From contig NZ_CP027231.1 of assembly GCF_002998435.1 (NCBI RefSeq), positions 2,831,001 through 2,895,000 of the forward strand: 64,000 nucleotides of DNA, in the 5' to 3' direction. This DNA comes from Bacteroides zoogleoformans (GTDB lineage: Bacteria > Bacteroidota > Bacteroidia > Bacteroidales > Bacteroidaceae). The position numbers were made by a program, and so were the translations under genes. Of this stretch, positions 15,533 through 41,240 are shown piece by piece. Under the pieces are notes generated by a model that was not told the origin of the DNA, ran no database searches, and was given only the letters and a program-made list of their open reading frames with translations. Positions within the stretch are counted from its first letter, which is position 1. The number at the start of each line of letters is the position of its first letter.

Positions 15533-16083
15533 AAGTGGCGTGTGTATAATACAAACACGGATTTTTCGGGAGGACACGAATGCTATCTTATCTCCGTGAA
15601 TCCGTAAAATCCGTGCCTGGAAGCAGAACTTAAAGGGTTCTTTAACGAAACTTTATTGCAAAGTGTGGAGCTGAGGGTAAATGAACTTACCTATATCAGT
15701 CCTTGATATTCAGAAATTTAGCCGAACCTCAATTTTTACTGTAGCCAATCTGTAGCCATTTCAGATATTTTTGAGAGAACGCACAGAAGTTGCATAGACT
15801 TCTTGTTTTCGGGTTCAAAGTTACAAAAAGATGATACATCTTCCAAATATTTGACTAAAAATGTTTTAGAAAGCTTGTGGCTACAATTTTTCAGTGCACG
15901 GTGCAAGACCTATCTATATATAGGCTTGCACCGTGCACTGAAGAGCCTTGCCACTTGTGATATACTGCTGATAATCAATATATAAAATGGTATTATATTA
16001 CCAGACAATGGTATTTTGATATTCCGTTAGAAGCTCATTTCATTAGGAACTTTGCAGCCATAATCATTATAGTCCAATGTATT
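15533..16083. other. 551-bp gene-free junction region, probable left end of the ICE
   Basis: No credible gene. Immediately after the regulator is a 10-bp inverted repeat (CACGGATTTT at 15556-15565 with its complement at 15606-15615), a likely terminator. Further right are two direct copies of TGTAGCCA(A/T) near 15741-15760, an inverted copy near 15878, and a 49-nt palindrome. Ordinary chromosomal genes lie to the left and mobile-element genes to the right, so the attachment site probably falls between about 15.62 and 15.9 kb. No tRNA gene and no duplicated sequence in the window fixes it. Confidence 0.4.
15892..15940. repeat. 49-nt near-perfect palindrome
   Basis: Arms CAGTGCACGGTGCAAG (15892-15907) and its exact complement (15925-15940), with a further CCTAT/ATAGG pairing inside, leaving a 6-nt loop. 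It precedes the first ICE gene by about 140 bases. It could be a terminator against read-through from the chromosome or a protein-binding site at the ICE end. Confidence 0.75.
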
Positions 16084-16563: not shown

Positions 16564-16942
16564 AACACGCTCCCTAATGAATGAGCTTCAAACTCTTCGC
16601 GAAGAGTTCAGGCAGATAGCCTGCTTTATCAGAGAGCTAAAGCGTGACTACTCTGTATTAGAAGAGAAAATAGAGTTAAGTACGGCAGATGTCTTGCATC
16701 TGCTTGGTATATCTAAGGCATCCCTTGCCAGATGGCGGGAAGCGAACTCTATTCCTTACCGCTATGTATCAAGTAATCATGTGGTCTATCCATTCAAAGG
16801 ACTCTACCTTTCTGTAAAGACAGGTAGGGCTACATTCAAGGGCTTTCGCCGCTTGGAGGCTTTGCAGCGTCTGAACGCCTACAAGGATGGTGTCCTTAAA
16901 GGCTACATGGGGGATTCTCAAACCTTATTTGAAGAACTATGA
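16544..16942 (+). CDS. DUF3853-like helix-turn-helix protein
   Basis: 132 residues. The N-terminal third is a charged helix suited to coiled-coil pairing (LMNELQTLREEFRQIACFIRELKRDY). From about residue 48 a winged-helix/MerR-like fold follows (STADVLHLLGISKASLARWREANSIPYRY), resembling excisionase-type DNA-binding proteins of Bacteroides mobile elements. The Met at 16547 is an equally good start. It overlaps the upstream gene by 20 bases and the downstream primase by 4 (ATGA), so all three are one operon. It probably acts in excision or replication control; that role is inferred from family context. Confidence 0.7.
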   Translation: MMMENHETRSLMNELQTLREEFRQIACFIRELKRDYSVLEEKIELSTADVLHLLGISKASLARWREANSIPYRYVSSNHVVYPFKGLYLSVKTGRATFKGFRRLEALQRLNAYKDGVLKGYMGDSQTLFEEL

Positions 16943-19005
16943 ACATCAAAGAAGAAATACTAAGCCGGACGAACAAAGGACTGGAGGTGTTCTGCTTCTA
17001 CATGCCCATCAACTTTGTACCCAAGCGCAACTTCCGTAATCCATTGTATGACGATAGGCGTGCATCATGCAATATCTACCTCGATAATAAGTCTGGCTGC
17101 TACCGCATGAAGGACTTTGGCAATGACGCCTACTCAGGTGATTGTTTCTGGTTTGCTGCAACTATGCTCGGTTTGGACGTGAGAAAAGATTTTATGAATG
17201 TTCTTGAAACAATCATCAGAGATTTACAACTCAATATTCGTCTTGAAGAAAGAAAAGAATACGGTAATAAGCGACCTGTCTTAATAAAACCTTCAAAGCA
17301 GCCTATATTACCTCCACCCGACCTTAATACTTCCATGACAAGCGAGAAGTGGTTTACATATATCGAACAGCCCTTTGGAGAAGAGGAACGAAATTATTGG
17401 CGACGATACGGCATTGATACCAGGACTTTGCTACGCTTCCATGTTAAATCATTAGCACGCTATGAATCCGTTTCAAGTCAGGGCAAGCCATTCTCACTTG
17501 TTTCTACGCGAGAAGAGCCTATGTTTGCTTATTGCCTTGGCAGGTTTGTGAAAGTTTATCGTCCCAATAGTAAATTGCGCTTCCTCTATGGAGGCAAGGA
17601 GGTGGATGACTATGTGTTTGGTTTTGAGCAGTTGCCCTGCAAAGGCGATATGATATTCATTACGGGGGGAGAGAAGGATGTGCTTTCACTCTCGGCTCAT
17701 GGATTCAATGCCATCTGTTTCAACAGCGAGACAGCACAGATACCAGAGAATATCATTGAGGGACTATTGCTCCGTTTTCGACATCTAATCATATTGTATG
17801 ATACGGATGAAACAGGACTAAGAGAAACTAAACGACAAGTCGAAGCTCTATCCAAGTTTAAGGTGCTTCACTTAACATTGCCCTTACAAGGCACAAAAAC
17901 AGAAAAGGATATTTCCGATTACTTTGCCTTAGGCAATGGTTCGGAAGGTTTAAAGGCACTGCTTTCTGATATGTTTACCCAAATGTATGCACAGACGATG
18001 ATGATATTGCAATCTTGTGAAATAGACTATGACAATCCTCCCGATGCCTCGAAGTCGGTGGTAGCAGTAAACGGCGTACCCCTCGGTACACAGGATAATC
18101 TGTTCTGCATCACTGGCGGAGAAGGAACAGGCAAAAGCAACTACATTGCTGCCATTCTTGCCGGTACTCTTGGTGCAGAACGCTTACAACCAGAACAAAC
18201 TTTGGGATTGGAGGTAACCGCCAACCCCAAAAGATTAGCTGTACTCCATTACGATACAGAGCAATCAGAAGCACAGTTGCATAAGAATTTGGGGAAGACA
18301 CTTCGTCGGGCAGGAGTCACGTCTGTACCAGAGTTCTACCATTCTCTTTATTTGGCTTCACTTTCTCGTAAAGATAGATTGAAAATTATTCGTGAGAGTA
18401 TGGACTTGTTTCACCATAAGCACGGAGGAATACATCTTGTGGTAATTGACGGCATTGCAGACTTGATACGATCTGCCAATGACGAAACGGAGAGTATAGC
18501 CATTGTGGATGAACTCTATCGTTTGGCAGGAATCTATAATACTTGCATCATCTGTGTGCTCCATTTTGTCCCTAACGGTATTAAGTTGCGTGGACATATT
18601 GGTTCCGAATTACAGCGCAAGGCGGCAGGTATTCTCTCCATAGAGAAAGACGATAACCCTGAATATTCGGTTGTAAAAGCTCTGAAGGTGCGTGACGGCA
18701 GTCCACTCGATGTGCCGATGATGCTTTTCGGCTGGGACAAAGATGCGGATATGCACGTCTATCGTGGAGAGAAGTCGAAAGAGGATAAAGAAAAGCGTAA
18801 GACGGATGAACTTTTGGCTGTTGTAAAATCAGCTTTCCATACCAAGCTAAGACTCTCATATCAAGAACTATGTGACGTATTGATGCGTGAAATGGAAATC
18901 AAAGACCGAACGGCAAAGAAGTACATTGCCTATATGAAAGAGCAGTGTATATTGTCGCAGGACGCAAGTGGTAACTATCAAAAGGGTGAGCTATGCCATA
19001 CTTAG
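16939..19005 (+). CDS. TOPRIM primase / RecA-like helicase fusion protein
   Basis: 688 residues. The N-terminal 100 residues resemble a CHC2-type primase domain without an obvious zinc knuckle ([20 protein letters not shown], then a Phe-rich helix). A TOPRIM domain follows near 225-330 with [15 protein letters not shown] (catalytic Glu) and [15 protein letters not shown] (DxD). From about 385 a RecA/RepA-like ATPase shows Walker [11 protein letters not shown] and Walker [12 protein letters not shown], and the C-terminus is a small winged-helix-like segment. Such proteins prime and unwind mobile-element DNA after excision or transfer. Its start overlaps the stop of the DUF3853-like gene and its end overlaps the next HTH gene by 13 bases. 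Confidence 0.85.
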
Positions 19006-19499: not shown

Positions 19500-20264
19500 A
19501 TGAGTGTATCTACAGGTAACAAAATCAACCAAATGCTCCAATTAGGACAAAAAAACGGATTGTTGTTTGCTCAATGGCTAACAGGACGAGGATATTCCAG
19601 TCAGCTATTGAAAAGATACCGCATATCGGGATGGTTAACACCTCTATGTAGAGGTGTAATGTACCGTACTGGGGATAACCTATCTGCCTATGGTGCATTG
19701 CAGTCGTTTAATGAACAGTTAGGAAAAAAGTTCCGTATAGCTGCTCATTCTGCATTAGAGTTATGGGGCTTCAATCATTATGTGCCAATGGGTAAGCCAT
19801 TGCTAGTGATAACTGCTACCAATGAGAGAATGCCTCAATGGATGAAGCTTAACGTATTCGACCGTGATTTTCATTTTTTCAAAACAGACGCATTTATGCA
19901 AGCACAAATAACGACTTTGTCTTATTTAGATTGGAATTTACTCGCGTCTACTCCAGAACAGGCTTTTATGGAATGCTTGTTACTATCGCCGCGGCAATAC
20001 AACTACATGGACTTGTACTATATAATGGAACAGCTAACAACATTGCGTTCAGAGGTTGTCCAATCGTTATTGGAAACAACCAAGAACTATAAGATGAAGC
20101 GCCTATTCTTATATATGGCAGAAAAAGCAAACCATTATTGGTTTGAAGAATTAGACTTATCTAGGATAGATTTGGGAACTACAAAATTGCAGTTGGTAAA
20201 GTCGGGGGTATATCTCAGTAAGTATAAAATGACAATCCCCAAAGAATTGAACGACTATGAATAA
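19500..20264 (+). CDS. abiEi: Type IV toxin-antitoxin antitoxin, AbiEi family
   Basis: 254 residues. The N-terminus is a winged helix-turn-helix (NGLLFAQWLTGRGYSSQLLKRYRISGWLTPLCRGVMYR), as in AbiEi antitoxins, which bind their own promoter. The C-terminal part (AHSALELWGFNHYV, LLASTPEQAFMECLLLSP) matches the AbiEi C-terminal domain that neutralises toxicity without contacting the toxin, as known for this family. The coding end overlaps the toxin gene by 8 bases, the standard AbiEi-AbiEii layout. On a mobile element this pair can stabilise the element or abort phage growth. Confidence 0.88.
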   Translation: MSVSTGNKINQMLQLGQKNGLLFAQWLTGRGYSSQLLKRYRISGWLTPLCRGVMYRTGDNLSAYGALQSFNEQLGKKFRIAAHSALELWGFNHYVPMGKPLLVITATNERMPQWMKLNVFDRDFHFFKTDAFMQAQITTLSYLDWNLLASTPEQAFMECLLLSPRQYNYMDLYYIMEQLTTLRSEVVQSLLETTKNYKMKRLFLYMAEKANHYWFEELDLSRIDLGTTKLQLVKSGVYLSKYKMTIPKELNDYE

Positions 20265-21168
20265 TCATCAGTATAAAAGTCAAGTGGCACTATTGGTACG
20301 CATCATGCCCTTGGTTTATAGAATCAAAGATTTTGCCGTACATGGTGGTACGGCTATCAACTTGTTTCATCAGAACATGCCACGGTATTCTGTGGATATA
20401 GATCTTACCTATATTCCCTTGGAGGCACGTTCAACGAGCTTGGAACATATCAATCTGAATCTTCAAGACTTGAAAACGAGCATCGAACGAGCCGTACCGG
20501 GAATACATGTGGTACATAAAACTGATGTATGGAAACTGCAATGCACATACAATGGCACTACGGTGAAAATCGAAGTGAATGGCACCAAACGTGGCATACT
20601 TGGAGAAGCGGAAGTAATGAACCTCTGCCCAAAGGCGAAAGATGAGTTTCAAGCTAACTGTAAGGCACGCATCGTACCTTATCCACAACTATATGGAGGT
20701 AAGATAGCGGCTGCTCTCAGTCGCCAACACCCACGTGATTTGTTTGATTGCAAGTACATGAAAGACGAAACATTGGATGAAGTAAAAGACGGTTTGTTTC
20801 TGTGCTTACTGGGAAGCGACAAACCCATCATAGAATCACTTTGTCCTAATGACATTAATCAGGAGGAGGCTCTTGAACATCAGTTCAAAGGAATGACCGA
20901 TATTCCTTTCACTTACAAGGATTATGAGTCCTCGCGTAACGACATTATCAGAAAGGTAAATGCCTGCCTTACCGATGAGGACAAAGACTTCATCATTTCT
21001 TTTGAAGAAGGCTCCCCGCAATGGGAACTATGTTGTGCTGGTGATTTGAGCAAATACCCATCCGTACAGTGGAAACTGCTCAATATCGAGAAACTAAAAA
21101 AGCAAAATCAAAAGAAGTTTCAAGAAGGAATTGATAAACTCAAAACTTTTTTTGAAAAAATGATGTAG
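20257..21168 (+). CDS. abiEii: Type IV toxin, AbiEii nucleotidyltransferase
   Basis: 303 residues. The nucleotidyltransferase core is visible at about 28-50: FAVHGGTAINLF followed by RYSVDIDLTY, the GG-x-DxD arrangement of AbiEii/AbiGii toxins. Further support is ARIVPYPQLYGGKIAAALSRQHPRDLFDC, the conserved Lys-Arg-Asp segment of the family. These enzymes transfer nucleotides onto tRNA or similar acceptors and stop growth. Metal-binding Asp residues are intact, so it should be active unless held in check by the upstream antitoxin. It is the last rightward gene before the tmRNA. Confidence 0.9.
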   Translation: MNNHQYKSQVALLVRIMPLVYRIKDFAVHGGTAINLFHQNMPRYSVDIDLTYIPLEARSTSLEHINLNLQDLKTSIERAVPGIHVVHKTDVWKLQCTYNGTTVKIEVNGTKRGILGEAEVMNLCPKAKDEFQANCKARIVPYPQLYGGKIAAALSRQHPRDLFDCKYMKDETLDEVKDGLFLCLLGSDKPIIESLCPNDINQEEALEHQFKGMTDIPFTYKDYESSRNDIIRKVNACLTDEDKDFIISFEEGSPQWELCCAGDLSKYPSVQWKLLNIEKLKKQNQKKFQEGIDKLKTFFEKMM

Positions 21169-21291: not shown

Positions 21292-21392
21292 CGGTGTATT
21301 AAAACTTCAAAATCTTATGGATCTCTGAATAGAGCATAATAAGAAAGAAGACTATCAGCTGCTTAAAAACAATTAATAGTCCTCTCTTTTAG

Positions 21393-21788
21393 TGGACTTG
21401 CGGAGAGTCGAACTCCGGTCCGCACAAGGAAACCATATGCTTTCTACATGCTTATTTCAGCCTTCTGTTTTCGAGTGTTGGCAAGACCTGAACCACCAAC
21501 CAACACCTTATCCTCTAAATTTCATCTATGCATCGAGGCATACACAAACTATTTCCGATTTACCTGCACCGCTTGACCCTTAGATTCGGAACAACATCCT
21601 TGGAGCAGTGTCTCGTCGCATCACCTGGTGACGCAATAAAGCCAGTAATCTACTATGCTTCGATTAGGCAGCGAGAGCGTAATTGTTTTCGCCAATTAAT
21701 TTTTTGACCACTCAGATTTAGGAGGTAGCCGTCGAGCCTCCGCATGCTTACATACCATCTCATCTTGCCGTCAAATCCATACAAGCCC
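21393..21788 (-). ncRNA. ssrA: tmRNA (transfer-messenger RNA)
   Basis: Read on the minus strand, the 5' end GGGCTTG (from 21788) pairs with CAAGTCC at the 3' end over 7 bases including one G-U, forming the acceptor stem. A T-arm (CGGAGTTCGACTCTCCG) precedes it, and the discriminator A is at 21393; CCA is not encoded. The 5' D-like part contains GGATTTGACGG. The tag frame 21693-21664 reads GGC GAA AAC AAT TAC GCT CTC GCT GCC TAA, that is GENNYALAA, ending in the ALAA degron expected for proteolysis. tmRNA rescues ribosomes stalled on broken mRNA. It is flanked by mobile-element genes on both sides, so it appears to be carried by the ICE rather than being the host's own copy. Confidence 0.93.
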
Positions 21789-21801: not shown

Positions 21802-21809
21802 CAAAGTTA
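21802..21809 (-). promoter_or_regulatory. -7 box of the tmRNA gene
   Basis: The reverse complement reads TAACTTTG, 13 bases upstream of the mature 5' end at 21788, which is the right distance for a start near 21795. Confidence 0.6.
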
Positions 21810-21873: not shown

Positions 21874-24800
21874 TCAAAATCTTACTTTATGACGTACTAT
21901 TGTCTCTTTTGCACTGTGTTCTGAAACTGTATCAGGAGGATTTTGCAAGTCTGATTTTGGGGAGAGTTCTTCATCTCCTTCTTTGTCCGCAGTAATCGTC
22001 AAAGTGATTTTTCTGTCCAACTCTGCCGACTGCCCTTTGAGCGAGCGAAGCTCGTCCTCTTTCTTCCACGTCCCATTAGCAATAGCAGTATAGATTTCCT
22101 GATTGGCTGCAACTTTCTCTTTCTCCTTTTCATGCGATTCAATTACTTTCGGGATGCGCCCAAGCGCACCTAAGAAGTTCTCACACGCAAGTTTCGGGTC
22201 CGTAGCCAACTTACCATTATTATAGGTATAGTAGATACTCTCCTGCCCTTTAACAAAGAAACGATTTACGGAGCAGTCAAACAAATCCTTTGAGGTACTT
22301 TCCGTCTTCACCATGATGGAGAAGCCATAAATCTCACCGATTTTATTATACTCACCTTTGGTGCGTGCCTTGTCGTTAATCTCCTGCAGGCGTGCGGCAA
22401 TGACCTTGGTGTCCGTACTGCCCTCCACACCTTTTATGACAAGTTTATTGATAGGATTGCCGTCCTTATCACGCTCGACACGCTTCTCAAAGCATGCCAA
22501 GTCCGCCTTGGCTTCCTTAATCTTGTCCGAATGAAAAGATACGGAACTGTCAATCTCCGCCAATTTCCCCGTCGCTGCATCACGCTCACGGAGAAAGTTC
22601 TTACGCTCGGATTCCAGCGTGGCAATCTTCTTGTCGAGTTTGGCTTTCTCTAACAAGTCTGTATTACCAGATAGCACGGCAACATACTCTGAAAAGTTCA
22701 TACCGCTATCCTCATCCATCGAACCCTCGTCAATGGTACGACTACCGAGCGTATTGGTCTTCAATTGATTGATAAACAATTGCTTGTTGTGTAGCAGATT
22801 GAATTTATAACTGTCCAACGACCGCTCCACGGCATAGATAATCACATCGACCTTGTTGTCAGCAAATTCTTTGGCAACCATATTGCCTTTACGGATTGCC
22901 CGACCATTGCGCTGTTCTAAATCTGAGGGTCGCCAGGGTGTGTCAAGTTGATGCACCGCCACCGCACGCTGCTGGGCATTAACTCCCGTTCCAAGCATGG
23001 ATGTAGAACCGAAGATAATGCGGATGTCTCCACGATTCATCGCATCTACCATCGCTTTTTTGGCTTTCTCGTTCTTGCACTCCTGAATGAAGCGTATCTC
23101 GTAGGACGGGATATGATAATCTTCTACCAATTTACGCTTCACCTCCGAATAGATATTGAAGTCTCCACCGGATTTATACGTGCCCAAGTCAGAGAACACA
23201 AACTGCGTACCCTTCTGTGCATCATACTTCTGATAGTAGTCATTAAGTAGCTTTGCACAATGGCTTGCCTTGTTGTCAATATGATCCGAGTACCCGTTTT
23301 CGTCTATCATGCGTAGATCCAAGCTCATCTTGCGGGCGTAGTCTGTAGCAATGAGCATTTTCGCTTTTTCCTCACTCTCACTAAGCGGTGCGCGTCCTAA
23401 GATTGTGGCATCCCCTTTCTTGGCAAATTCCATCAACTTACCGATAAACTCTTCCTGTTCAGGTGTCGGCGGAATGTTATGCAGTATCTCGTTCTTCTCA
23501 GGTCTGTCAATACCAATATCCTTAGCAGTTCTGAAATCGCATATCTCCGCATAGAACGAAGCCAGCTCAGGCACTTTGATGAATGTTCTGAAGCGTTCCT
23601 TCTGAATAATCTCATTCGTAATGGAAAACTCATAGTCGGTGGACTTCTTGGCAAAGACCGCAGCCCATGCGTCAAAACTGTTGATGCCCTGCTTTTCCAA
23701 GGCTTGCGGGCGCAAGTATTTGAACAAAAGATAAAGTTCAGTCAGACTATTGGAAATAGTAGTTCCCGAAAGGAATGTTGCTCCCAAGTCCTTGCCCGAC
23801 CGCTCCTGTATGGTGCGAATGGCAAAGAGCATATTAAGCGCACGCTGTGAGCCGTCAGGATTGCCCAAGCCTGATACCCTATCGTGGCGAGTGTTGAACA
23901 TTAGGTTCTTGAATTGATGACTTTCATCTACAAATAGGTGGTCAATGCCCATCATCTTGAAATCTACGGCATCGTCCTTGCGCTCGGCTATGCTGTCTTG
24001 AATGCCTTGTAACTTGGCTTCCAAGGTCTGCTTTCGTTTCTCCAATCCTTTGAGCATGGCACGGGATATGTCCGCTCCCTGCATACGGAGCACTTCAAGG
24101 TTTTCTTCTACCGAGTCTTTCTCTTTCTGTAAGATTGCCTCCTGTATCTCCAAGGCTTGCGGAATCATACCGAACTGCTCATGCGTTAAGATAATACAGT
24201 CCCAATCGTTGTTCTTGATGTCATTAAAGATACGCTGGCGGTTCTGCTTGTTAAAGTCGTTCTTGCCCGGATAGAGAATCTTGGCATTGGGATAAGCCTT
24301 GCGAAAAGTATCAGCAATATCGAATACATTTGCCTTCAGTCCGATAATCATCGGCTTGTTGGCTAATCCCAACCGCTTCATCTCGTAGGCAGCCGTACAC
24401 ATGATAAGCGTCTTGCCCGCACCCACCTCGTGGTCGCAGATACCACCTCCATTGGTCTTCAGCATCCATACGGCATCTTTCTGACTCTTATAAAGGTCTG
24501 GTATGCCCAATCTTTTAAGGTCAAGGTCGGGAAACGACTGGTGCGTACCGTCAAAATTGGGACGCACAAAGCAGTTGAAAAGACGATTGTAACGGTCAGA
24601 GAGCTGCTCTTTGAACGTGTCGGGTGTCTGTCCGAGCCAATCTACAAAGCCTTGTCTGATCTCCTCAATCTTGGCGTTCGCCATCTGTATGGCGTGCCCG
24701 TCCCGTACTTTAATGGTCTTGGTTTCTCCTGTGATCTTATCCGTCACCTCCTTACTCTTGTTGATGTCGGGAATGGTATTGTGAAGTGCGTGCTTCATCA

Positions 24801-27800
24801 GGTTGATGCCGTCATAACGGCGGAACTCCCCCGGTACGGCATACTTATGCCAGATATTGGCATTCTTTCGGTCGCAGACAATGCTGTACTCGTCCATGTT
24901 GGAATGGTAGGATACGCTAATATCCGTCCCGAAAAACTCCGAGGCAAACCTACCATAGACTTTAGCAGGTATCCAGCGTTCACCGAGATTGAAGTCAAGG
25001 TCCGCAAAAGGAATGGGTGTTGGCGTGGCTGCGCGTAGGGCAGCAAGGCTCTGCTTTGCCTCTTCGTGGTCGGGATGGTCCAAGAGCCACGACTCGATAC
25101 GCTCCGCCTTTTCTATTACATTGCCCGAAATGAACTTGTCGGCTACCTCATAGCTGTCCTCTTCGGGATTGTAGAAGATGCGTCCTTCCAAGGCGGAAAG
25201 CATATCGCTCTCTTCCATATCGGGAAGCAGGGAACTCATATAGTCAAGTTCCACCGTGCCGTATTTGTTGAGTGATGCGCCCAATGCCTCCATCGGGTCT
25301 GCGGCAATGGAAAGCTCGGAGGTGGAAAAAGCCGTCGGATGGTCGAAGATGTCCGCCTTGACGTACCTGCCGTTTTCGGAGCGTTCCAAGAACAGCATTT
25401 CCACGCCTGTGGCGTCCATCTTGATGACATCGGTATTTGTCTTTTGATTGAAATTCCCCCAACGACCTACATAGCCATCATAAAGCCGATTGAGTTTCTC
25501 ACGCTCTTCCTTGTCCTCCGCTTGGTTGTTCGCCTCATAATCATAGAGTCTGTGATAACTCTCCCTAATCTCAATGTATGCTTTCAGCCGTGAGAGCTGG
25601 GCAAAGGGCAAGTCCATCGGATTGAAAGTGGGATGTCGTTTCAAGTCAGAGAGAAAGCCGACCTGTCCTTTTTGCATGACAATAGAGCCGTCCCTCAGAT
25701 GAGAGTCGGGCGATGAGAGAAAGGGACGCGGTGAAGCGTCAAACTCTTTCTTAACCTCTGCTATGGGCTGTGGCTTGCGAGGTTCGGCTTCCTCCATAAA
25801 GTCAAAGAGCGAGGGTTCTCTGACGGGAGCTGATGTCGTTTTCTTGCTTCTGCGAGGACTGCTTGGCGTGCTTCTTGCCGGCTTAGACTGTCGGCTTGCA
25901 GAAAGTGGTTGGTTATCGCTGACCTTCTTTTGTTGAGCAGCCTCCTTGATTTCATTATTTACACGGGCTACGTCTTGTGTCCAAAGACTATACTCCTCCG
26001 GGGCAAACAAGAGTTGATCCGTTGTTTCTGTCTCGATGGTGCTATCCATAATCGGATGATGGTCTTCATCAAAGAATACCGTCTGACCGTTCATCTCTCT
26101 TGGGGCTTCCACGTCCGTGCGAATTTCACGGATTTCCTGTTCGTATTGTCTTTGAAGGGTAATTACGGGGACACCTTCGGGAGCAGGTTCGGTTTCTGGC
26201 TCTATTGTTGGAAGTACCTGTGTTGCTTGTGCTTCTTCTTTTGTCTCTGATTCGTCTCTTGCTTCATCTCCCACTATCTTATTACCTTCTCCGACCTTCT
26301 CTTGGGGCTGAGTTTCTTCTTGTACTAGCCTCAGAACTTCCTGACTTCTTTCTTCCTTGCCTTGCTCAATGATGGGTTCTTTGGTGTATTGTCCTCTGAC
26401 AATCTCTTCCAGCTCCGCAATCTCGTGCAATTTTGTGGGCTTGAAGTATAAGTCCCGCTCAATTCCCAAGCCTCTGACCTTTACTTCCTCCATTTCATCA
26501 AGCGACATTGTACCCAATTCCCAGCCGTAGCCCATCGTAACAGCACCGAAGCCGATGCGCTCCTTGGGGTCGTACTCCAATAGATAAGCCGTGTAAGCCC
26601 CCATTGGGAAAAAGTAGCGAGCGTAGGCTATTCTATCGCCAATGAGTTCTTTTTCTGTCCTATAGAGTTTGGGAAGCTGTTTTTTGATGCTATCAGGCAT
26701 CAGATTATAGGCATTATCTTCTTCCTTATCCTTAGTTTCCTGTTTCTGAGGTGTTTCTTCATTTTTTATGCTTTCTTGCACTTTCTGCACCATCTTGTCC
26801 ACATGTACCTGCCATTCCTCCTCAGTCATGGGTATGCCTGTTTCATAGAGTTTACGATCAAAACGCTGCTCCACTTCCAAAGAGAGTTGAGTACGCAGGC
26901 TGTCAGCCATATCCTCGATACCGCCGTCAAACGTATATTCCCAGGCAGGCTTGCCGTAAGGGTCCGTACCCATCGTGCGGTCTGTGGCGATGGTTCGGTG
27001 GGCTATGTCCTTCCATTCACCGTCAAAGAGCGAATTGTGCTTGAATACGACAGAAGAGCCTTCGGCTATGGGAGCCGATACGGACGCAACAAATTGCTGT
27101 TCGATGCCCTCGCTGATAGTCTTGCCCGACTGCTTTTGCAGGACAATGAGGTCGCTACCCACATCCGTACCCGCATTCTCGGAGAACATACCCGAAGGCA
27201 GGCGGATGGCGGAGATAAGCCGGCTATTCTGCATGAGGTAACGGCGGATGGCTTCATTTTTAGGGCTGTCCAATACGCCCTGCGAGGTAATGAAAGCAAG
27301 AAGTCCGCCCTCTTTGATAGTGTCCAGCCCTTTCACAAAGAAATAATTGTGGATGGTTCGGGTGGATTCCCGTTTAAGGATATTCTCTCCCTTGCTATAA
27401 CTACGGTCATAGACCATAAAGTCGCCAAAGGGGATGTTGCTGGTAATAAGGTCGTACTTGTCCTTCTCTTCCAATTCACCAATGGCTTCAAAGGGTTCTT
27501 GCCGAACAAAGATATTGTCCTTGCCGTAAGGATGAAGGGCTTGTGTGATGCGTGCCGTCAGCATGTCTTTTTCCATAGCATCGACCATACCAGCACTTTT
27601 GGCAAAGGTTTCGGTAAAGGCTCCCATACCTGCGGAAGGGTCCAAGCATTGTCTTACTTGCACGTCGGTGGCACTTAGGGCATCGGCAATGGCGGAGACG
27701 ATACGGGTGTCGGTATAGAAGGAAGTCAGTACGCTTGCCTTGATGCTCTCCCAATAGCGTTTGGCTGTGTTGGTATCGACGGCATCACGGTAAATCATCT

Positions 27801-28032
27801 GTTTGAGCCTTTGGGTAGGCGCGAACAGATTTTGCTCCGATGCACTCCAATAGCGGAGGTCATCGGGATTATCACAACGGTTCAAGACGCATTTCAGACC
27901 ACCGAAACCTTGATAACCTCTGAGCAGGACTTTCTCGGCTTCGGTGGCTTCACGGCGTTCTTTCTCCAAGCGCAGCACGACACGAATGGCTTCCGTGTTG
28001 CCCGCCAAGACTGCTTTCTTATTGTATGCCAT
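21874..28032 (-). CDS. Giant methyltransferase-helicase (DarB-like polyvalent protein)
   Basis: 2052 residues. The N-terminal third is an N6-adenine methyltransferase-type domain: [17 protein letters not shown] (SAM loop, about 130-145) and [12 protein letters not shown] (NPPF-like motif, about 200). A low-complexity, Glu/Pro-rich linker covers about 570-780. The C-terminal half is an SNF2-type helicase: HEVGAGKT (Walker A, about 1200), [10 protein letters not shown] (DEAH-like box, about 1367) and [11 protein letters not shown] (motif VI, about 1710), followed by coiled-coil segments. The same order is known from phage P1 DarB, which protects incoming DNA from restriction, and related proteins occur on many conjugative elements. 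Protection of transferred ICE DNA is therefore the likely role. It is the last gene of a leftward operon after topB. Confidence 0.85.
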
Positions 28033-28126: not shown

Positions 28127-30283
28127 CTATCTCCCTCGTGCTTTTCCTTTCTTACCCTCAAACTCAAAGGAGGTGGTGTGGTCTTCGCCCAGAACAAGGC
28201 GTGCGTTGAACTTCTTGCCTGCCTTGCTCGTCAAGCCTTTAAGGATGGGTGTTCGCCCGGTGGTTATCAAATCACGGATATTATCTTCGGAAAGGAACGT
28301 GCCGCAGATTTCACGGAAGATGCGGAAGTCGCAGCCCTCATGCCTGCATTTGGCAATCTTGGCATAGATGCCCACACTTTCGTTGCCACATTTAGGACAG
28401 CGGTAGGTTGGATAGGATTTCTGCACCGGTGGAGCAAGGGCAAGGAGTTCCTCGCAAATTGTCTCCACGTAGGAGTTGATGCCTTGCGCGAATTTCTCGG
28501 GCGGCATCTGTCCTGCTTCGATGGCGGCAAGGGTCAGTTCCCACGAGCCTGTCATCTCTGCATTGGCAATTCGTTTGTCCTTGACAATCTCATAGACAGC
28601 CAAGCCTTTCTCTGTCGGGACTACCGTTTTCTTTTCTCTTCGGATATAGTCTCGCAGGATAAGTGTTTCGATGATATTGGCTTGGGTGGCAGGTGTACCG
28701 ATACCACATTCTGCCATTGCTTTTTTGCTTTCTGCATCTGAAACCTCTTTCCCTGCGTTCTGCGTTCCGCGAAATCCGGCTGCACTCGGCATATCCGAAC
28801 AAGTTCGTTTCTGCTCTCGTTGGCACGGATTTTCCATAGCAGAAAGCAAAGTCGCTTCTGTATAGAGCGGTTTGGGCTTGGTCTTGTGCTCGGTAATCTC
28901 TGAGTCAGATAACGGTAACACCTCATTTTCTGTCAGATTGGGCAATACGGACAAGGTCTGTTCTTCATCCTCCTTGCCTTTTTCATCGTTCGTTCCGGTA
29001 CCTTGCTGCACGGCTTTCCAGCCCAAAGAAATGTTTCGGAACGCCTTCCAAATGAAGGTGTTTGTACCGTCGGTCAGTTCCACCTGCATACGCTCCTCCT
29101 CTGAGTCGGGAGAGAAGGCTTCGATGAAACGATGGACTACCATTTGGTAGATGGTTGTTTCATCTGCCGATAGTCCCGATGGAGTTTCACCCGTAGGGAT
29201 GATGGCGTGGTGGTCGGTTACCTTGTCGTTGTCCACAGAGTGGCGGTTAAGTGGGAAAGATAATCCTTGTCCTATCTTGCCGAGCAAGGCGGGTACTTCC
29301 TCGAAAACATCTTCGCTGATGTATCGGCTGCCTGTGCGGGGATAGGTCGTGATTTTCTTCTCATAGAGGCTTTGTGCTATTGAGAGGGTCTTGTCTGCTG
29401 AAAAGCCGTGCTTTTTGTTGGCTTCTTTTTGTAAGGTGGTAAGGTCGAACAAGAGAGGTGGCGACGTATGCGTTACCTTTCTTGTGACCGATGTTACCTG
29501 AAGCCTGCTCTGTTCGCGAAGCATGGCGAGAGCGGACTGTGCATCGGCTTCACTCTCGAATGCACTACTGCTCACGGCTTTCAGAGATATGCCCTCTTTC
29601 TCCACAGCTACGGAGAGTTTCCAATAGGGGACGGAAGAAAAATCACGATTTTCTATATACCGACGGCAGACCATAGCGAGTGTCGGGGTCTGTACCCGTC
29701 CCAAAGAGTAACCGCCGTTGCGAGCGATGGACAGGGCACGGCTGGCATTGATGCCCACAAGCCAGTCGGCTTCGCTTCTTGCCTTGGCGGAGTGATAGAG
29801 ATTGTCATACGCAGTTCCTGCCTTGAGATGGGCAAGCCCTTCACGGATGGCTTTATCCGTGAGGGAGGAAATCCAAAGTCTGTCAAAAGGCTTATGGCAG
29901 TTCAAGTGGTGATAGATGTATCGGAAGATGAGTTCACCTTCACGTCCTGCATCGGTGGCTACGATGATGCGGTCGGCTCTGTCGAAGCACTCACGGATAG
30001 CTTTGAGTTGTTTGAGCGCTGCGGGGTCTGACGTGTACTCCTTATCCTTGCGCACTTGACGCACGATAAGCCTGAAAGGATTGGGACGAATGGGCAGGTC
30101 TTCGGCTTTATAGGCTGCAAAGCCGTAGGCTTCGGGCATGGCAAGGGTGATGAGGTGTCCCATCGCCCATGTTACCACATAACCGTTACCTTCTAAATAT
30201 CCGTCTTGTCTGGTATTAGCCCCTACGATACGGGCTATATCTCTGGCTACCGAGGGTTTCTCGGCAATAATACAAGTAATCAT
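28127..30283 (-). CDS. topB: DNA topoisomerase III (type IA) with C-terminal DUF3945-like module
   Basis: 718 residues. TOPRIM domain at the N-terminus (IIAEKPSVARDIARIVGA; then ATDAGREGELIFRYIY near 105). Active-site Tyr at about 314 in ITTYPRTGSRYISEDV. A C4-like zinc ribbon lies near 620-650 (YRCPKCGNESVGIYAK, KCRHEGCDFR). After it the last 50 residues (LSEDNIRDLITTGR, then LKGLTSKAGKKFNARLVL) repeat a module found three times in the neighbouring DUF3945 protein. Mobile-element topoisomerase III enzymes, including Exc of CTnDOT, relax single-stranded regions during excision or transfer. It starts 21 bases after the DUF3945 gene stop and is in one operon with it and the DarB-like gene. Confidence 0.93.
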   Translation of the reverse strand: MITCIIAEKPSVARDIARIVGANTRQDGYLEGNGYVVTWAMGHLITLAMPEAYGFAAYKAEDLPIRPNPFRLIVRQVRKDKEYTSDPAALKQLKAIRECFDRADRIIVATDAGREGELIFRYIYHHLNCHKPFDRLWISSLTDKAIREGLAHLKAGTAYDNLYHSAKARSEADWLVGINASRALSIARNGGYSLGRVQTPTLAMVCRRYIENRDFSSVPYWKLSVAVEKEGISLKAVSSSAFESEADAQSALAMLREQSRLQVTSVTRKVTHTSPPLLFDLTTLQKEANKKHGFSADKTLSIAQSLYEKKITTYPRTGSRYISEDVFEEVPALLGKIGQGLSFPLNRHSVDNDKVTDHHAIIPTGETPSGLSADETTIYQMVVHRFIEAFSPDSEEERMQVELTDGTNTFIWKAFRNISLGWKAVQQGTGTNDEKGKEDEEQTLSVLPNLTENEVLPLSDSEITEHKTKPKPLYTEATLLSAMENPCQREQKRTCSDMPSAAGFRGTQNAGKEVSDAESKKAMAECGIGTPATQANIIETLILRDYIRREKKTVVPTEKGLAVYEIVKDKRIANAEMTGSWELTLAAIEAGQMPPEKFAQGINSYVETICEELLALAPPVQKSYPTYRCPKCGNESVGIYAKIAKCRHEGCDFRIFREICGTFLSEDNIRDLITTGRTPILKGLTSKAGKKFNARLVLGEDHTTSFEFEGKKGKARGR

Positions 30284-30304
30284 AGTTGGGTTTGGTTTTA
30301 AGGG

Positions 30305-31705
30305 TTACATCTTGCGTCCGCGACGCTGTTGTTTCTTCTCCTCCAGCTTCTGCTTTTGGACGGCAGTGGGCTGTGTCTGCCCAGACTTTAACGGCTCGTT
30401 CACGTTCTTGGTAGCTTCGTTGGTCTTGCCTTGGTTGTTCACGGCAACCTGTGTCTTGTGTTCTTCGGCTACGGCTACCACCTTTTCCTTGCTGGTCTCC
30501 TGCTTCTTGTCTGGATTCCACTTGTAGAAACGCGGGCGGTTCTGTTCCTTGTCCATCTTGACGTAAGCATTGAAGGGTTGCCCTTCCTTGTCCACCATGT
30601 TCTTCAAGTAGAGCGTGCGACCGCTGTCCAATGCCTCACGCTGCTTGTCGGAGAGTTCCAACCCGCAGAGTTTGCGTGGTGCGCCTTGTTGTCGGGTGTG
30701 CTGCTGTCGTTCTTTCAAGCCTTGCTTGTTCTCGAAGATAAACTCGATGCCTTTCTTCTCGGCATTGACCTGCAAAGTAGCATTGAAGGACTTACCACTC
30801 TTGGCGGTCATTCCTTCCACTTTCACGGCTTTGCCCTCTACAAGGTCTTTATACTGTGCATCAGAAAGTGTAACGCCCTTGATTTCCTTTGGGATGTTCA
30901 CACGGTCGGCACGAAGGGCGATGAGTTCGTTGGTCTGCGGATCGATGGATACGTAGGCTGCGAACGGCTCGCCATTCTTGGGCGTAATCTCGATGGTCTT
31001 GCCAAGGTTGCCTGTTGCAAGGAGCTGTTCTTTCTCCTCTGGAGAGAACTTGTGTCCCATATAGGGAAAGTCGAGCTGTGGCTCCTTGCGGAGCGGGTGG
31101 ATAGCCAATCCGATGTTACCCTCACCATCGGTACGGAATGCTAGACGTGCATCAGTATAGATGGTAGTATCACCGATAGGCACGGCAATCGTGATAAGAT
31201 TGCTCTTTTGCCAGTTGAGCATCTTTGCTAACTCTCCGCTCTGCTCCAATCGCTCACGGGTAAGTCCAAGGTTGTCGAGCTGCTCCCAGTCAATCTTTGA
31301 CTCGTCAATGGCAGTGGCATTCTTCTGCTTGGGTAGGAAGTCCTCAAAGCGCACCTGACTGTCTGCCAACTGCTGTTTGTTCTCAGGCTTCTCACGGTTC
31401 TGTAACATTGTTTGGAGCGATGCCACACCTTGCTCCACGTTGTTAGCCACTACTTTGTAAAGTCCAAAACGGGACGGTTCGTTAAACTGTTTGAGGAAAT
31501 TAGTCATGAAGTTCTTCAGCAAGCCGTCCTTGTTGTTGAATTTCAAAAAGGCTGCCTGATGCACGTCCTTGGCTTCGGTTGTTTGGAGCTTTCCTTTGTC
31601 GTCAATACCTGAAACCACGGAGAGTTTTCCCATTTCGTTAGCATTCTTCACTTCCGTGCGGTCTTCCAATACCAGCACATAGTTGTCATTGTTGTTTGAT
31701 TCCAT
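30305..31705 (-). CDS. DUF3945 repeat protein
   Basis: 466 residues, no signal or membrane helix. The first 190 residues are a helical domain (FLKFNNKDGLLKNFMTNFLK). From about 235 three copies of a 50-60-residue module follow, each starting (F/L)S-x-E/D-x-x-x-x-L and containing a G-x-x-F-x-A/N core: FSPEEKEQLLATGN, LSDAQYKDLVEGKAVKVEGM, LSDKQREALDSGRTLYLKNM. The tail is Lys/Gln-rich and basic (KLEEKKQQRRGRKM), as in nucleic-acid-binding proteins. DUF3945 is a domain of polyvalent proteins on Bacteroidetes conjugative elements. It is the first gene of the leftward topB operon, and partnership with topoisomerase III is suggested by the shared module. Confidence 0.85.
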   Translation of the reverse strand: MESNNNDNYVLVLEDRTEVKNANEMGKLSVVSGIDDKGKLQTTEAKDVHQAAFLKFNNKDGLLKNFMTNFLKQFNEPSRFGLYKVVANNVEQGVASLQTMLQNREKPENKQQLADSQVRFEDFLPKQKNATAIDESKIDWEQLDNLGLTRERLEQSGELAKMLNWQKSNLITIAVPIGDTTIYTDARLAFRTDGEGNIGLAIHPLRKEPQLDFPYMGHKFSPEEKEQLLATGNLGKTIEITPKNGEPFAAYVSIDPQTNELIALRADRVNIPKEIKGVTLSDAQYKDLVEGKAVKVEGMTAKSGKSFNATLQVNAEKKGIEFIFENKQGLKERQQHTRQQGAPRKLCGLELSDKQREALDSGRTLYLKNMVDKEGQPFNAYVKMDKEQNRPRFYKWNPDKKQETSKEKVVAVAEEHKTQVAVNNQGKTNEATKNVNEPLKSGQTQPTAVQKQKLEEKKQQRRGRKM

Positions 31706-32096: not shown

Positions 32097-34460
32097 ATGA
32101 GTAATAAAAATATTTTTCACAACTTCCTATTGGTGCTAATTTTCTCATTCACATGGCAGAATATGTTAGCTCAAAAAATCGTTTATGGGCAAATTACGGA
32201 TGAGCAAACTCACCTGCCGTTAGATGGAGCTTCTATTATTTTAGAAAACTCTAATATCGGCACAATTTCAAATCATGCAGGTGTGTTTAGAATGGAACTT
32301 CCTTCAAAAAGCAGCAAGCGGATCATAGTTCAATATGTAGGATATAAAAGCCGTAACATACTACTCAATAAAAAATCATACATCAATGACAGCATTTGCT
32401 GTAATGTGGAATTGCAGCCATTAAACAATATCTTATCTGATGTCGTAGTGTTGGGAAAAAGCAAGGCGCAAAAGCATCGTGAAGTTCCATCTGCAGTCAC
32501 CATTATAGACAGTCAGTCTCTTAAATACAAGACTGCAACCTTAAACGAAATTCTTGACAATGCTGCAGGTATCAAAGTGGCTCAACAAGGCGGACTGGGT
32601 AATGCTTCACGTATCATCGTACAAGGGATGGACGGTAAGCGTGTCGGTATCTTTATCAATGGTATGCCTATGGGAAATTCCGATGAATTTCAACTCAGCA
32701 GCATACCTCTTGATATGGTAGATGAAGTGGAGATATACAAAGGCATCATCCCGGCATGGCTGGGAGGTGACGGATTAGGCGGTGCCGTGAACATCCGACT
32801 GAAAGACTTCAACAAAAATCATTTGGAAACGGCATTTGAGGTAGCATCATACAATACATATATCGGCAGTCTGCAACTGAAGCAATATATTGGCAAGACC
32901 TCGACAGCTTTCCATGCCGGTGCCACGATGAACTATGCTAAAAACAATTATAGTTTTTCTTCTCCTTTTGAATTGGGACGTATCATCCACCGTGACCATG
33001 ATGCGTACACACATGGAGGTTTCAACGTGGGTGTGAGCAGCCAACAATTATGGTTCGACCGATTTGACATCACATTGAGTGCCGACTACTATCGCAAAGA
33101 GATACAAGGGGGATTGATGAACGTGCAAAATAATATTCAGCATGCCTTTACGCGGACACGTTCTGCCAATGCGGCACTGAGTCTTGAGAAAAGTTTCTTA
33201 AACGGTAAACTCACCGCACAACTACATTCCATTGTTGGTCTTAGTCTCGTCAATCAAGTAGATACTTCACATTATTGTTACGATTTCATAGGTAACAGAT
33301 TCCCAAGCGGTTCAGGACGCGGAGAGATTGGCTCTGTTCCAAACGATTCACATGACAGGCATACTACCATTCGTGAATTACTCAACCTGACTTATAAGAT
33401 TGATGGCAATCAACTTATCACATGGAACACCAATTACCGATATGGTCGGAAGATGCCAAAAGATGAACTTGCCGACCAATACTCGCGTCTGCCTACAAGC
33501 GGATACCCAAGTACGGTACACGCCATAGTATCCGGATTGTCTCATAAATTGAATCTAAACAGTGGTAAATTTACCAACGAAATAGGAGTAAAACTTTTTA
33601 ATCACCACTCGGAAGTCCTTCCGTTTGCCGAAGCAATTATGTTGCAAGACAAACTTAGAACATCGACCAACCACAGTACGATGATTGGCTGGAGCGAGGC
33701 AATGGCATTTCATCTACTTCCGGATAATGCCTTGACACTGAAAGCCTCCGTACAATCAACCGTCAGAATGCCCATAGCCGATGAGCTGTTTGGTGACGGA
33801 GTGTTGCTCCTCCCGTCTGAGAAGCTTCGTCCTGAGCGTAGCTTTAACGTCAATGCAGGTGCGATATGGCTGAGCAATGCCAGATATTATCCGCAGGTGC
33901 GAATCGGGGTAAATGCATTCTACATGAGTGCAAAAGACATGATTAAACTGATGTATAGCTCCATGAACATGGCTTATGACAATATCGGCAAGGTTCGGGT
34001 GATGGGGCTGGACATGGAACTTGACAGCAAATTGAACCATTGGCTGGATATTCAGGGGAATATCACGTGGCAAGATGCTCGCGACATGAGAAAGGAAGCC
34101 GTAGGCGGCGGAGAGAATTTTCACTATCGCTATCGAATCCCCAATATGCCTTATCTGTTTGGCAACGTCGGATTACGCCTGCACAAAGATGGTTTGCTGG
34201 GCAAGACTTCTTCTTCAGCCTTTTCTTCTACGTTCGGATTTACCAAAGAATTCAGCTACAACTGGGAAGCAAGCAATAACAATACAATGCTTATACCGGC
34301 AAGATACAGTTGGGACGTTGCCGTTCACCATTCTTTCAACAAACATTGCCAGCTTAGCTTTGAGATACGGAACCTACTCAACCGTGAAAACTGGGCAGAA
34401 TTTCGCTATCCGATGGAAAGGCGCACATTTCACTTGAAGATAAAATATATTATTAACTAA
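32097..34460 (+). CDS. TonB-dependent outer-membrane receptor, XusA-like
   Basis: 787 residues. Signal peptide (MSNKNIFHNFLLVLIFSF, cleavage after MLAQ), then a carboxypeptidase-regulatory-like domain (VYGQITDEQTHLPLDGASII, about 27-115). The plug domain (HREVPSAVTIIDSQSL; NEILDNAAGIKVAQQGG; KRVGIFINGMPMGN) is followed by a barrel to the C-terminus (FEIRNLLNRENWAEFRYPME, RTFHLKIKYIIN). Its size is that of siderophore/metal receptors rather than the 1000-residue SusC class. The next gene is a DUF4374 lipoprotein, the exact order of xusA-xusB, which imports enterobactin-type xenosiderophores in Bacteroides thetaiotaomicron. Iron-siderophore uptake is therefore the best guess; the ligand is unknown. 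Confidence 0.88.
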   Translation: MSNKNIFHNFLLVLIFSFTWQNMLAQKIVYGQITDEQTHLPLDGASIILENSNIGTISNHAGVFRMELPSKSSKRIIVQYVGYKSRNILLNKKSYINDSICCNVELQPLNNILSDVVVLGKSKAQKHREVPSAVTIIDSQSLKYKTATLNEILDNAAGIKVAQQGGLGNASRIIVQGMDGKRVGIFINGMPMGNSDEFQLSSIPLDMVDEVEIYKGIIPAWLGGDGLGGAVNIRLKDFNKNHLETAFEVASYNTYIGSLQLKQYIGKTSTAFHAGATMNYAKNNYSFSSPFELGRIIHRDHDAYTHGGFNVGVSSQQLWFDRFDITLSADYYRKEIQGGLMNVQNNIQHAFTRTRSANAALSLEKSFLNGKLTAQLHSIVGLSLVNQVDTSHYCYDFIGNRFPSGSGRGEIGSVPNDSHDRHTTIRELLNLTYKIDGNQLITWNTNYRYGRKMPKDELADQYSRLPTSGYPSTVHAIVSGLSHKLNLNSGKFTNEIGVKLFNHHSEVLPFAEAIMLQDKLRTSTNHSTMIGWSEAMAFHLLPDNALTLKASVQSTVRMPIADELFGDGVLLLPSEKLRPERSFNVNAGAIWLSNARYYPQVRIGVNAFYMSAKDMIKLMYSSMNMAYDNIGKVRVMGLDMELDSKLNHWLDIQGNITWQDARDMRKEAVGGGENFHYRYRIPNMPYLFGNVGLRLHKDGLLGKTSSSAFSSTFGFTKEFSYNWEASNNNTMLIPARYSWDVAVHHSFNKHCQLSFEIRNLLNRENWAEFRYPMERRTFHLKIKYIIN

Positions 34461-34482
34461 ATATAAACATAAAGTAAAAAAC

Positions 34483-35721
34483 ATGAAAGCAAAAAAAATC
34501 TTTTGGGTATTGCCTTGTCTTACCCTGCTGTTTGCAGCAACAGTGTCATCTTGTTCAGAAAACAATGACGACCATCCACAGTCTGAAAAGAAGCATCATT
34601 TCCTAATGTCTGCACAATCAGACAACAGTTTCTTCATCACCAGTTTCGAGAATTTCAACGAAGGTACGTCCGTGTCATACGACAAAGCTATAACGCTTCC
34701 TTCAGGACATCTCTTCATGGAAAAACGAGGAAAGTATGTTTATCTTCAGTCCGGTTCTATGTATGGTTATGGTGGTGAGCAAACTCTCCACAAATACGAA
34801 GTGAATGCAAATGGACAACTGTCTTCTCATCCTGTGGGTTCACTTTCCTTCCCGGGTTCACCCAATGTGGTAGAAATCATATTTGCGAACGACACCAAAG
34901 CTTACGCCGTCACATGCGCAAGCCGCGGACAACTTATCGTGTTCAATCCGAGCACAATGAGCGTAACGAAGGAAATAGACCTGTCTCCCTATGCAGAGGG
35001 TGATAAAGATCCGGACGGAGGCAATGGCATTGTGCGTGACGGCAAGCTGTTCCTGCCTCTCAACCAAGCAAAGTCTATGAAGGAAATCCTTGCAACGCCT
35101 GCTCAAGTAGCTGTCATTGACGTGGCTACCGATAAGGTGGAAAAGGTTATAAAGGATGATCGTGCAACGAGTCTCGGTATGGTCGGACATACATCGCCTG
35201 TTATGGATGAAGCCGGTAACATCTATTTCCACACGGGACCTCGTGCGGCAATGATGTGTCAGTTTATGCCCGGCAAGGGGTACAAAGACGGACTGCTGCG
35301 CATCAAGAAGGGAGAAACGGATTTTGACAAGGACTTCTATATGAGCCTGCAAACAACCGAAGGCGCGGAAGTTGGCTCCTACGGTATGTACATGACCTAT
35401 GGCGGCAATGGAAAAATCTACACGTTCCTCTATAAACCTTCACTCGTAAAGGATCCCAACGATCAGACTTATATCGTCAACAAATGTTATGTCCCTTACG
35501 AGATTGACGTAAACAAGAAAACAGGTCGTATACTTCCTCTTCCAGCGTCATGCGGCTGGGCTGCCAATGCCATCATCAAGGTGGAAAGCTCCATTTATTT
35601 CGGTGAACATACCGACAACGGCATAGGATTCTATCGTTACGATATGGCAACAGGGAAGGGTTCCACGCAACCAAGCGTGAAGACGCCAAGTGGTGCCTAT
35701 AAAGTGATTTCACTCGACTAA
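34483..35721 (+). CDS. DUF4374 surface lipoprotein, XusB-like
   Basis: 412 residues beginning MKAKKIFWVLPCLTLLFAAT and ending the signal at VSSC, a lipobox; an acidic SENNDDHP stretch follows, compatible with surface export. The body is beta-propeller-like (GSLSFPGSPNVVEIIFANDT, RGQLIVFNPSTMSVTKEIDL, GYGGEQTLHKYEVNANGQL), as expected for DUF4374. Family member XusB binds enterobactin and salmochelin at the cell surface for its receptor XusA. It lies 22 bases after the receptor gene. Three hairpins follow its stop. Confidence 0.85.
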   Translation: MKAKKIFWVLPCLTLLFAATVSSCSENNDDHPQSEKKHHFLMSAQSDNSFFITSFENFNEGTSVSYDKAITLPSGHLFMEKRGKYVYLQSGSMYGYGGEQTLHKYEVNANGQLSSHPVGSLSFPGSPNVVEIIFANDTKAYAVTCASRGQLIVFNPSTMSVTKEIDLSPYAEGDKDPDGGNGIVRDGKLFLPLNQAKSMKEILATPAQVAVIDVATDKVEKVIKDDRATSLGMVGHTSPVMDEAGNIYFHTGPRAAMMCQFMPGKGYKDGLLRIKKGETDFDKDFYMSLQTTEGAEVGSYGMYMTYGGNGKIYTFLYKPSLVKDPNDQTYIVNKCYVPYEIDVNKKTGRILPLPASCGWAANAIIKVESSIYFGEHTDNGIGFYRYDMATGKGSTQPSVKTPSGAYKVISLD

Positions 35722-35773
35722 ACGAGTTGAGCGTGTATCAAAAAAGTTGGCACATTCTCTTAAATGAAAGAAT

Positions 35774-35870: not shown

Positions 35871-35903
35871 TAATTAAACATTCAAAATTAAAAACATATA
35901 AGG

Positions 35904-36293: not shown

Positions 36294-36320
36294 ATCATTC
36301 CGAACGTTCATTCTACAAAT

Positions 36321-41234: not shown

Positions 41235-41240
41235 ATAGCA

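Follow-up and report, generated by a model that had tools for sequence, protein, structure and literature searches.

In the 64,000-nucleotide stretch of DNA analyzed here (the window; G000:C1:2831001-2895000 of the one-contig, 3.36-Mb genome of Bacteroides zoogleoformans), one tmRNA gene was found, designated ssrA2, that is carried by a conjugative element (ICE) inserted in turn into the 3' end of the resident ssrA of its host. We consider it rather probable that ssrA2 serves as a spare tmRNA gene, enabling this ssrA-targeting ICE to persist in hosts in which it damages the resident ssrA. This reading is supported by the presence of the same ICE, with the same ends and an identical ssrA2, at ssrA in five genomes; it is weakened by the fact that these carriers are few and related.

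Both ARAGORN and the Rfam model RF00023 called a full tmRNA gene at positions 21390-21788 (minus strand), the latter scoring 137.9 bits (cut-off 47; E = 7e-54) with the model complete from 1 to 374. The tag frame given by ARAGORN is GENNYALAA*, i.e. ALAA followed by the stop; all pairs of the acceptor stem (GGGCTTG/CAAGTCC, with G3-U70 retained) and of the T-stem (CGGAG/CTCCG) are intact, and the last encoded base is the discriminator A73 at 21393, the CCA not being encoded. By its score, its stems with G3-U70 and its ALAA tag, ssrA2 is a member of the tmRNA family. The element TAACTTTG (21802-21809, minus strand), located 13 bases upstream of the gene, matches TAnnTTTG, the Bacteroidota -7 box; both strands taken together, the window contains this motif 48 times, corresponding to 0.02 per 60 bases. 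A terminator-like hairpin is present just 3' of the gene (21341-21391, minus strand; -22.2 kcal/mol for the 75-base fold).

The ICE of ~62.7 kb is of the CTnDOT type and extends from position 15665 to about 78400, i.e. beyond the window, which contains its part 15665-64000. Its left end GTGGAGCTG (15665-15673; CAGCTCCAC in ssrA sense) is a remnant of the 3' end of the target gene, and ssrA2 is located about 5.7 kb inside the element from this end; its right end is contiguous with the 3' terminus of the resident ssrA (78388-78784), beside which the tyrosine integrase (Arm-DNA-bind_5, SAM-like and Phage_integrase domains) is encoded at 76758-78044, outside the window. The left module includes a primase/helicase-like gene (16939-19005, plus strand; Toprim_2 and AAA_25 matches) and contains, as cargo beside ssrA2, the genes of an AbiEi antitoxin (19500-20264, plus strand) and an AbiEii nucleotidyltransferase toxin (20257-21168, plus strand). 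The backbone comprises an N6-methylase/helicase gene of 2052 aa (21874-28032, minus strand), topoisomerase and DUF4099/DUF3945 genes (28127-31705, minus strand), a mobilisation block of coupling protein (YWFCY/T4SS-DNA_transf), MobA/VirD2 relaxase and a small adjacent gene (45755-49521, minus strand), and the CTnDOT-type transfer genes (52987-63329, plus strand; TraG 52987-55500, TraJ 59050-60093, TraM 61063-62331, DUF4138 62379-63329). Relaxase, coupling protein, TraG/TraJ/TraM-type genes, integrase and defined ends of an element of this type are thus all present. A preliminary description of this DNA had proposed a complete ssrA with acceptor stem, T-arm and GENNYALAA tag, flanked closely by mobile-element genes within a conjugative element; the gene calls and the stem reading agree with this, AbiEii lies on one side, the stop codon of the methylase/helicase gene lies 86 bases away on the other (21874), and transfer and mobilisation genes are present in the window, with the integrase beyond it. 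The transfer region is interrupted by IS21-type istA/istB genes (56224-58591); this stretch is missing from the copy in the Prevotella genome G389, so that the insertion probably occurred later in the window copy. By eye, the cargo at 32097-45733 contains look-alikes of a TonB-type receptor, ABC exporters, an MMPL-type transporter and a TetR-type regulator; the ICE portion at 37.1-47.8 kb is 96% identical in G389.

A search of the complete host genome for another ssrA, as had been recommended, revealed a second full gene at C1:2909388-2909784 (minus strand, window coordinates 78388-78784; 134.7 bits), situated outside the window on the same strand as ssrA2 and 57 kb apart from it. This copy is the resident, its best same-genus matches reaching 91%. 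ssrA2, in contrast, was 65-73% identical to 16 same-genus tmRNA loci (71% to the host resident), whereas its body reached 88-90% identity to the residents of P. amnii and two other Prevotella genomes; the flanks of ssrA2 and those of the three Prevotella residents were 48-66% alike. In a tree of 115 rows ssrA2 was placed inside the Prevotella clade (node supports of 0.91 and 0.98), with P. amnii as exact sister at weak support (0.31). Phylogeny and identity values thus support the transfer from another Bacteroidales lineage that the preliminary description had suggested. The tag from which that suggestion was drawn is a less dependable sign of origin: The host resident indeed encodes GETNYALAA and ssrA2 GENNYALAA, but the tag is unreliable within the genus, where 15 loci with a tag call, including the host resident, showed GETNYALAA in eight, GENNYALAA in two and other tags in five cases. 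A tmRNA match above the family cut-off was obtained in 37 of 41 genomes (40 relatives and the host), with two copies in the host only. The alternative that ssrA2 is the resident copy trapped by insertions is ruled out by the second full ssrA of the host and by the same ICE-borne copy in four other genomes. As a side observation, another genome of the genus (G1126; L323, L324) contains two full tmRNA genes on separate contigs, both tagged GENNYALAA.

Comparison of the ssrA2 DNA with 399 genomes of the family gave identity at 399/399 positions in three, namely the window host, G358 and G389. A search with the methylase/helicase in 84,980 species genomes revealed ssrA2 directly downstream in three of the best 80 of 431 relatives, in each case at 100%: Prevotella veroralis DSM 19559 (= G358), P. 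denticola NCTC13067 and Hoylesella enoeca JCM 12259. The five carrier genomes are consequently the window host, P. veroralis, G389, P. denticola and H. enoeca, with G389 counted apart from P. denticola because its flank differs from the P. denticola flank examined. RF00023, applied to the genomes of 32 methylase/helicase loci, detected two tmRNAs in P. veroralis, P. denticola and H. enoeca, one in 28 of the other 29 and none in the remaining one. In the four other carriers the homology to the ICE starts at 15662-15665 in differing host DNA, and on its opposite side the element extends up to the 3' end of the resident ssrA; as the ICE ends of P. veroralis and H. enoeca are assembled on separate contigs, the connection to ssrA in these two is one that we infer. 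The two tmRNA genes of P. denticola and of G389 are 50-51 kb apart on one strand. An identical ssrA2 thus occupies the same place in the same ICE of four other genomes, the arrangement for which the preliminary description had advised to look, and the distribution of this ICE over Bacteroides, Prevotella and Hoylesella points to conjugative transfer. For the window host, no empty site was found: the DNA flanking the element on either side had no match at the other ssrA loci compared.

The left-end remnant is GTGGAGCTG in the window host and in H. enoeca, and all three Prevotella carriers have GTGGACCTG instead. A further ICE end, carrying CTCTTGTTCAGAGTA (to which TACTCTGAACAAGAG of this ICE is reverse complementary), abuts the left end in P. 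denticola and H. enoeca (L196, L199), which indicates that elements stack at ssrA; the remnant in these two genomes may belong to the second element. A role of ssrA2 as a decoy, i.e. as a second attB on which further elements could land, would agree with such a busy site and its tandem ICE ends; yet the ssrA2 end CAAGTCCAC is devoid of the core CAGCTCCAC, and the 3' flank of ssrA2 is unbroken in all five carriers, which makes this role exceedingly unlikely. Because its end differs from the core of the element, ssrA2 is possibly not itself a target. The idea that this end was altered in order to escape the integrase found no support: P. amnii and two further Prevotella genomes possess these stems natively.

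The left module (15.9-21.9 kb) was 99.6-100% identical to the window copy in three carriers when compared per 250-base step, and in G389 92-99% up to 17.9 kb and 99-100% beyond. At the stop codon of the methylase gene the identity among carriers falls, with 92-96% in the first 500 bases of this gene past 21.9 kb and 81-98% in the next 750. The slot at 19.3-21.9 kb had no match in 37 of the 42 listed related loci without ssrA2, some of which end before the slot; the matches consisted of AbiE at about 75% (L099, L106), of some 100-130 bases (L113, L157) and of a resident tmRNA (L128). ssrA2 is therefore situated in a variable cargo slot next to the ICE end. ssrA2 and AbiE might be passengers from a Prevotella donor that entered this slot and spread unselected with the left module, as would be compatible with the near-identity of the entire module including AbiE among carriers, with the missing slot match in most listed related loci and with a window host that has no need of ssrA2. 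Indeed, the module identity is by itself no sign of selection on ssrA2, because AbiE is equally conserved. We nevertheless regard mere passage as unlikely: ssrA2 occurs only in ssrA-inserted copies, it retains full stems, promoter-like box and terminator-like hairpin, and four of the five residents show a mismatch linked to the insertion.

On insertion, the 3' acceptor strand of the resident is replaced, and in each of the five carriers it now reads CAGCTCC followed by element DNA. The effect differs with the 5' strand of the host: In the window host, GGGGTTG pairs fully with CAGCTCC and the host RNA is rebuilt with an intact stem. In the residents of P. veroralis, G389 and P. denticola, the combination GGGCTTG/CAGCTCC contains a C4-C69 mismatch beside the G3-U70 identity pair; native Prevotella of the GGGCTTG type are fully paired (GGGCTTG/CAGGTCC or CAAGTCC). 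The H. enoeca resident has a paired acceptor stem and an A-A mismatch in the T-stem (GAGGG/CCCAC), the native form of which was presumably paired. According to ViennaRNA, the acceptor stem energy changes with the mismatch from -9.0 to -2.5 kcal/mol and the T-stem energy from -8.0 (assumed native form) to -2.6 kcal/mol. Among 84 distinct tmRNA rows surveyed, stem mismatches were restricted to these four carrier residents; the stems of L012, L014, L015, L016 and L204 were read from ARAGORN coordinates, and all five pair. For E. coli, the available part of a report on ssrA prophages (PMC10107115) states that loss of U357 in the acceptor stem through excision of CP4-57 inactivates the tmRNA.

The comparison group consisted of eight single-tmRNA genomes that contain an element at ssrA (G374, G966, G954, G475, G464, G030, G026, G463). 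Their integrases were 93% (G374), 87% (G966) and 39-46% (G954, G475, G464, G030, G026) identical to that of the window ICE; G463 showed only an ICE end motif at ssrA, with no integrase in the 1.5-kb flank. None of the eight residents (G475 and G026 read by eye) had a mismatch in acceptor or T-stem, versus four of the five carriers (Fisher p = 0.007), with rows that are not independent, as three of the four mismatches are of one kind and from one genus (Prevotella). Within the close integrase group alone, the mismatch was present in 4/5 genomes with and 0/2 without ssrA2. Furthermore, a related integrase or ICE end was located at the resident ssrA in 5/5 genomes with ssrA2 versus 2/24 without (p = 1.8e-4), a count that covers the 29 backbone genomes with readable resident 3' flank and only related integrases or the end motif of this ICE, one of the two occupied non-carriers being recognized by the end motif only. 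Of the three backbone loci of P. denticola, a single one, which lies at ssrA, contains ssrA2.

Integrases of 53-62% identity with a tRNA gene in the flank lay beside tRNA-Ser in 13 of 14 cases; the others had no RNA gene in the flank. A related ICE of Prevotella sp. oral taxon 299 (L328/L329; NC_022111.1 136001-226000) shares the left-end core and has its integrase beside tRNA-Ser, and ARAGORN detected no tmRNA in the 90 kb of this ICE region; NC_022111.1 itself is a 1.77-Mb record labelled plasmid. This preference and the core shared at tRNA-Ser suggest that the ICE core may have been built for the ends of tRNA-Ser and Bacteroides-type ssrA. ssrA2 could then have widened the host range by opening GGGCTTG-type hosts to such an ICE, with the benefit at the population level. 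This is a broader form of the spare-tmRNA explanation; apart from the related ICE beside tRNA-Ser, it would accommodate the finding that among the 13 ssrA-inserted genomes with stems read the GGGCTTG 5' strand occurred in ssrA2 carriers only, but the numbers are small and the history of the ICE is not datable, and we give it very little probability.

According to the spare-tmRNA explanation, the successive steps would be the following. The ICE, with its tyrosine integrase beside the junction, sits in the 3' end of the resident ssrA, which then ends with CAGCTCC; the GGGGTTG host stays paired, whereas GGGCTTG hosts (many Prevotella have this strand, with CAGGTCC as usual 3' strand) are left with the C4-C69 mismatch and H. 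enoeca with the A-A mismatch in the T-stem, all of which is legible in the carrier loci. The mismatched tmRNA may be poorly charged or processed, in hosts that presumably contain no ArfB: the RF-1-domain genes number two in every carrier (open frames of 372-397 aa), and as these are read as RF1 and RF2, ArfB appears to be absent from all five. ssrA2, expressed from its own promoter-like box and delimited by its terminator-like hairpin, would supply an intact Prevotella-type tmRNA to be used with the only SmpB of the host; indeed, one SmpB was found in each of the five carrier hosts. In the window host, where the resident is fully paired, ssrA2 would on this reading not be needed and might represent an unused insurance copy. 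The further-reaching proposition of a tmRNA-dependent integration, in which the ICE needs its own ssrA to settle where the only ssrA is broken and which has possibly arisen more than once, has in our view slightly less than an even chance.

The preliminary description had offered rescue from defence nucleases or a different tagging of proteins as the benefit of a second ssrA; no result points to either, and the insertion of the ICE into the resident ssrA suggests another reason for a spare. In its general form, the idea that an extra tmRNA raises the rescue capacity when defence nucleases or the AbiEii toxin stall translation could draw on the position of ssrA2 directly beside the AbiEi/AbiEii pair. 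It is highly improbable, however, as the single smpB gene of the host is encoded off the element, as the loci with an AbiE-like stretch (L099, L106; about 75%) showed no tmRNA in the stretch examined, and as the link with ssrA insertion would be left unexplained.

The closest known parallel to the spare-tmRNA explanation is the tRNA-dependent lysogeny of actinobacteriophages (Guerrero-Bustamante and Hatfull 2024, PMC10865867): in the accessible parts of that report, a tyrosine integrase, integration at an attB located 3'-terminally in an RNA gene, and an element that encodes the same RNA are features shared with the ssrA2 element; the short core that fails to rebuild the RNA gene has its counterpart in four of the five carriers but not in the window host. 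tmRNA is mentioned there as an attB site only. Those systems consist of phage and tRNA and were tested with mutants, in contrast to the ICE and tmRNA considered here, which are known from sequence only and for which the damage is host-dependent. By analogy, the ssrA2 element probably works like such a system; it is not filed as a proven member of this type, because the window host stays paired and the need for ssrA2 is one that we infer. A prophage of M. abscessus with its own tRNA-Thr, prophiT36-2, likewise combines, as far as its description goes in the sections available (PMC9934374), an imperfect core, unpaired acceptor-stem positions of the target and an RNA copy near att, again with tRNA and prophage instead of tmRNA and ICE. 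The prophages CP4-57 and CP4So at ssrA also alter the tmRNA acceptor stem from the 3' end of the gene; in their case the stem changes on excision, and the portion of the article covered (PMC10107115) does not mention a spare ssrA. Extra ssrA copies, sometimes horizontally acquired, have been described from bacterial, plasmid and phage genomes, and in the consulted text of these reports they are not linked to an ssrA-inserted element or to compensation (PMC4131195, PMC9569102). With the CTnDOT-type ICEs of Bacteroidales the element has TraG, TraJ, TraM, the relaxase and the Arm-DNA-bind_5 integrase in common, and it differs from them in that ssrA is the target and cargo includes ssrA. An ICE-borne ssrA that compensates for ssrA insertion was not found in the literature as covered by titles and abstract openings, with most subscription journals outside this scope, nor in the accessible parts of PMC11915505, PMC12429752 and PMC11476347. 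If the spare-tmRNA explanation is true, spare translation RNAs that mend the damage of an element's own insertion, an idea recently described for tRNAs of phages, would be found to include tmRNA on conjugative elements as well; some of the extra bacterial ssrA genes, whose role is left open in the available text of PMC9569102, would have a simple reason, and a single base pair would predict which hosts need a spare ssrA.

A separate small ssrA cassette was encountered in other genomes: a unit of ~610 bp, composed of about 210 bp spacer and a second complete ssrA, that directly follows the resident ssrA in Bacteroides G308 (L080:10557-11166) and G284 (L081) and, in another genus, G149 (L083). 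The cassette ssrA has the tag GNENYALAA, is nearly identical among these three and ends at CAGGTCCAC. A survey of 158 genomes of this genus recovered the intact unit from G308 and G284; in G412 (L321/L322) assembly gaps interrupt it. The residents of G308, G284 and G149 are paired (GGGGTTG/CAGCTCC), as is the cassette's own ssrA in G308 and G149 (GGGCTTG/CAGGTCC); in G412 only the CAGGTCC end of the latter is legible beyond the gap. The G412 resident is split, with the GGGCTTG start on one contig, CAGCTCC and the cassette spacer on another, and 221 identical gene bases common to both. G412 resembles B. finegoldii, with 99.4% identity over 1400 bases to a record of this species. Compared with this, a B. 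finegoldii record (L043) of 99.5% identity over 1459 bases contains, in the 24.4 kb covered, one tmRNA, no cassette and the paired combination GGGCTTG/CAGGTCC; the change from CAGGTCC to CAGCTCC therefore indicates that the cassette goes with the same C4-C69 change. G412 thus offers an independent parallel in favour of the spare-tmRNA explanation; against it stands that a mismatched resident accompanies the cassette in only one of the four genomes. No cassette integrase was found and the spacer had no match in plasmid records; the cassette is possibly a miniature mobile ssrA element.

Several matches from other collections were rejected as relatives of the element. The viral contig collection contained no match to the ICE integrase protein or to two exact sequence patterns. 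The phage-collection record MT837283 is closer to the host resident tmRNA, and the open reading frames of MT836513 resemble, by eye, a Prevotella-type chromosomal contig; the tmRNA of the latter (MT836513.1, L044, labelled Bacteriophage sp.) is 80.7% identical to ssrA2. The plasmid-record matches H1-H3 (69-71%) resemble fragments of chromosomes, a judgement based on gene content for H1 and H3; H2 carries no annotation. Two records labelled plasmids, NZ_OY725762.1 (L041) and NZ_OY725907.1 (L043), contain resident-type tmRNAs amid chromosomal-looking genes (obgE, hpt, adenylate kinase and dinB in L043), and both have the appearance of chromosomal pieces.
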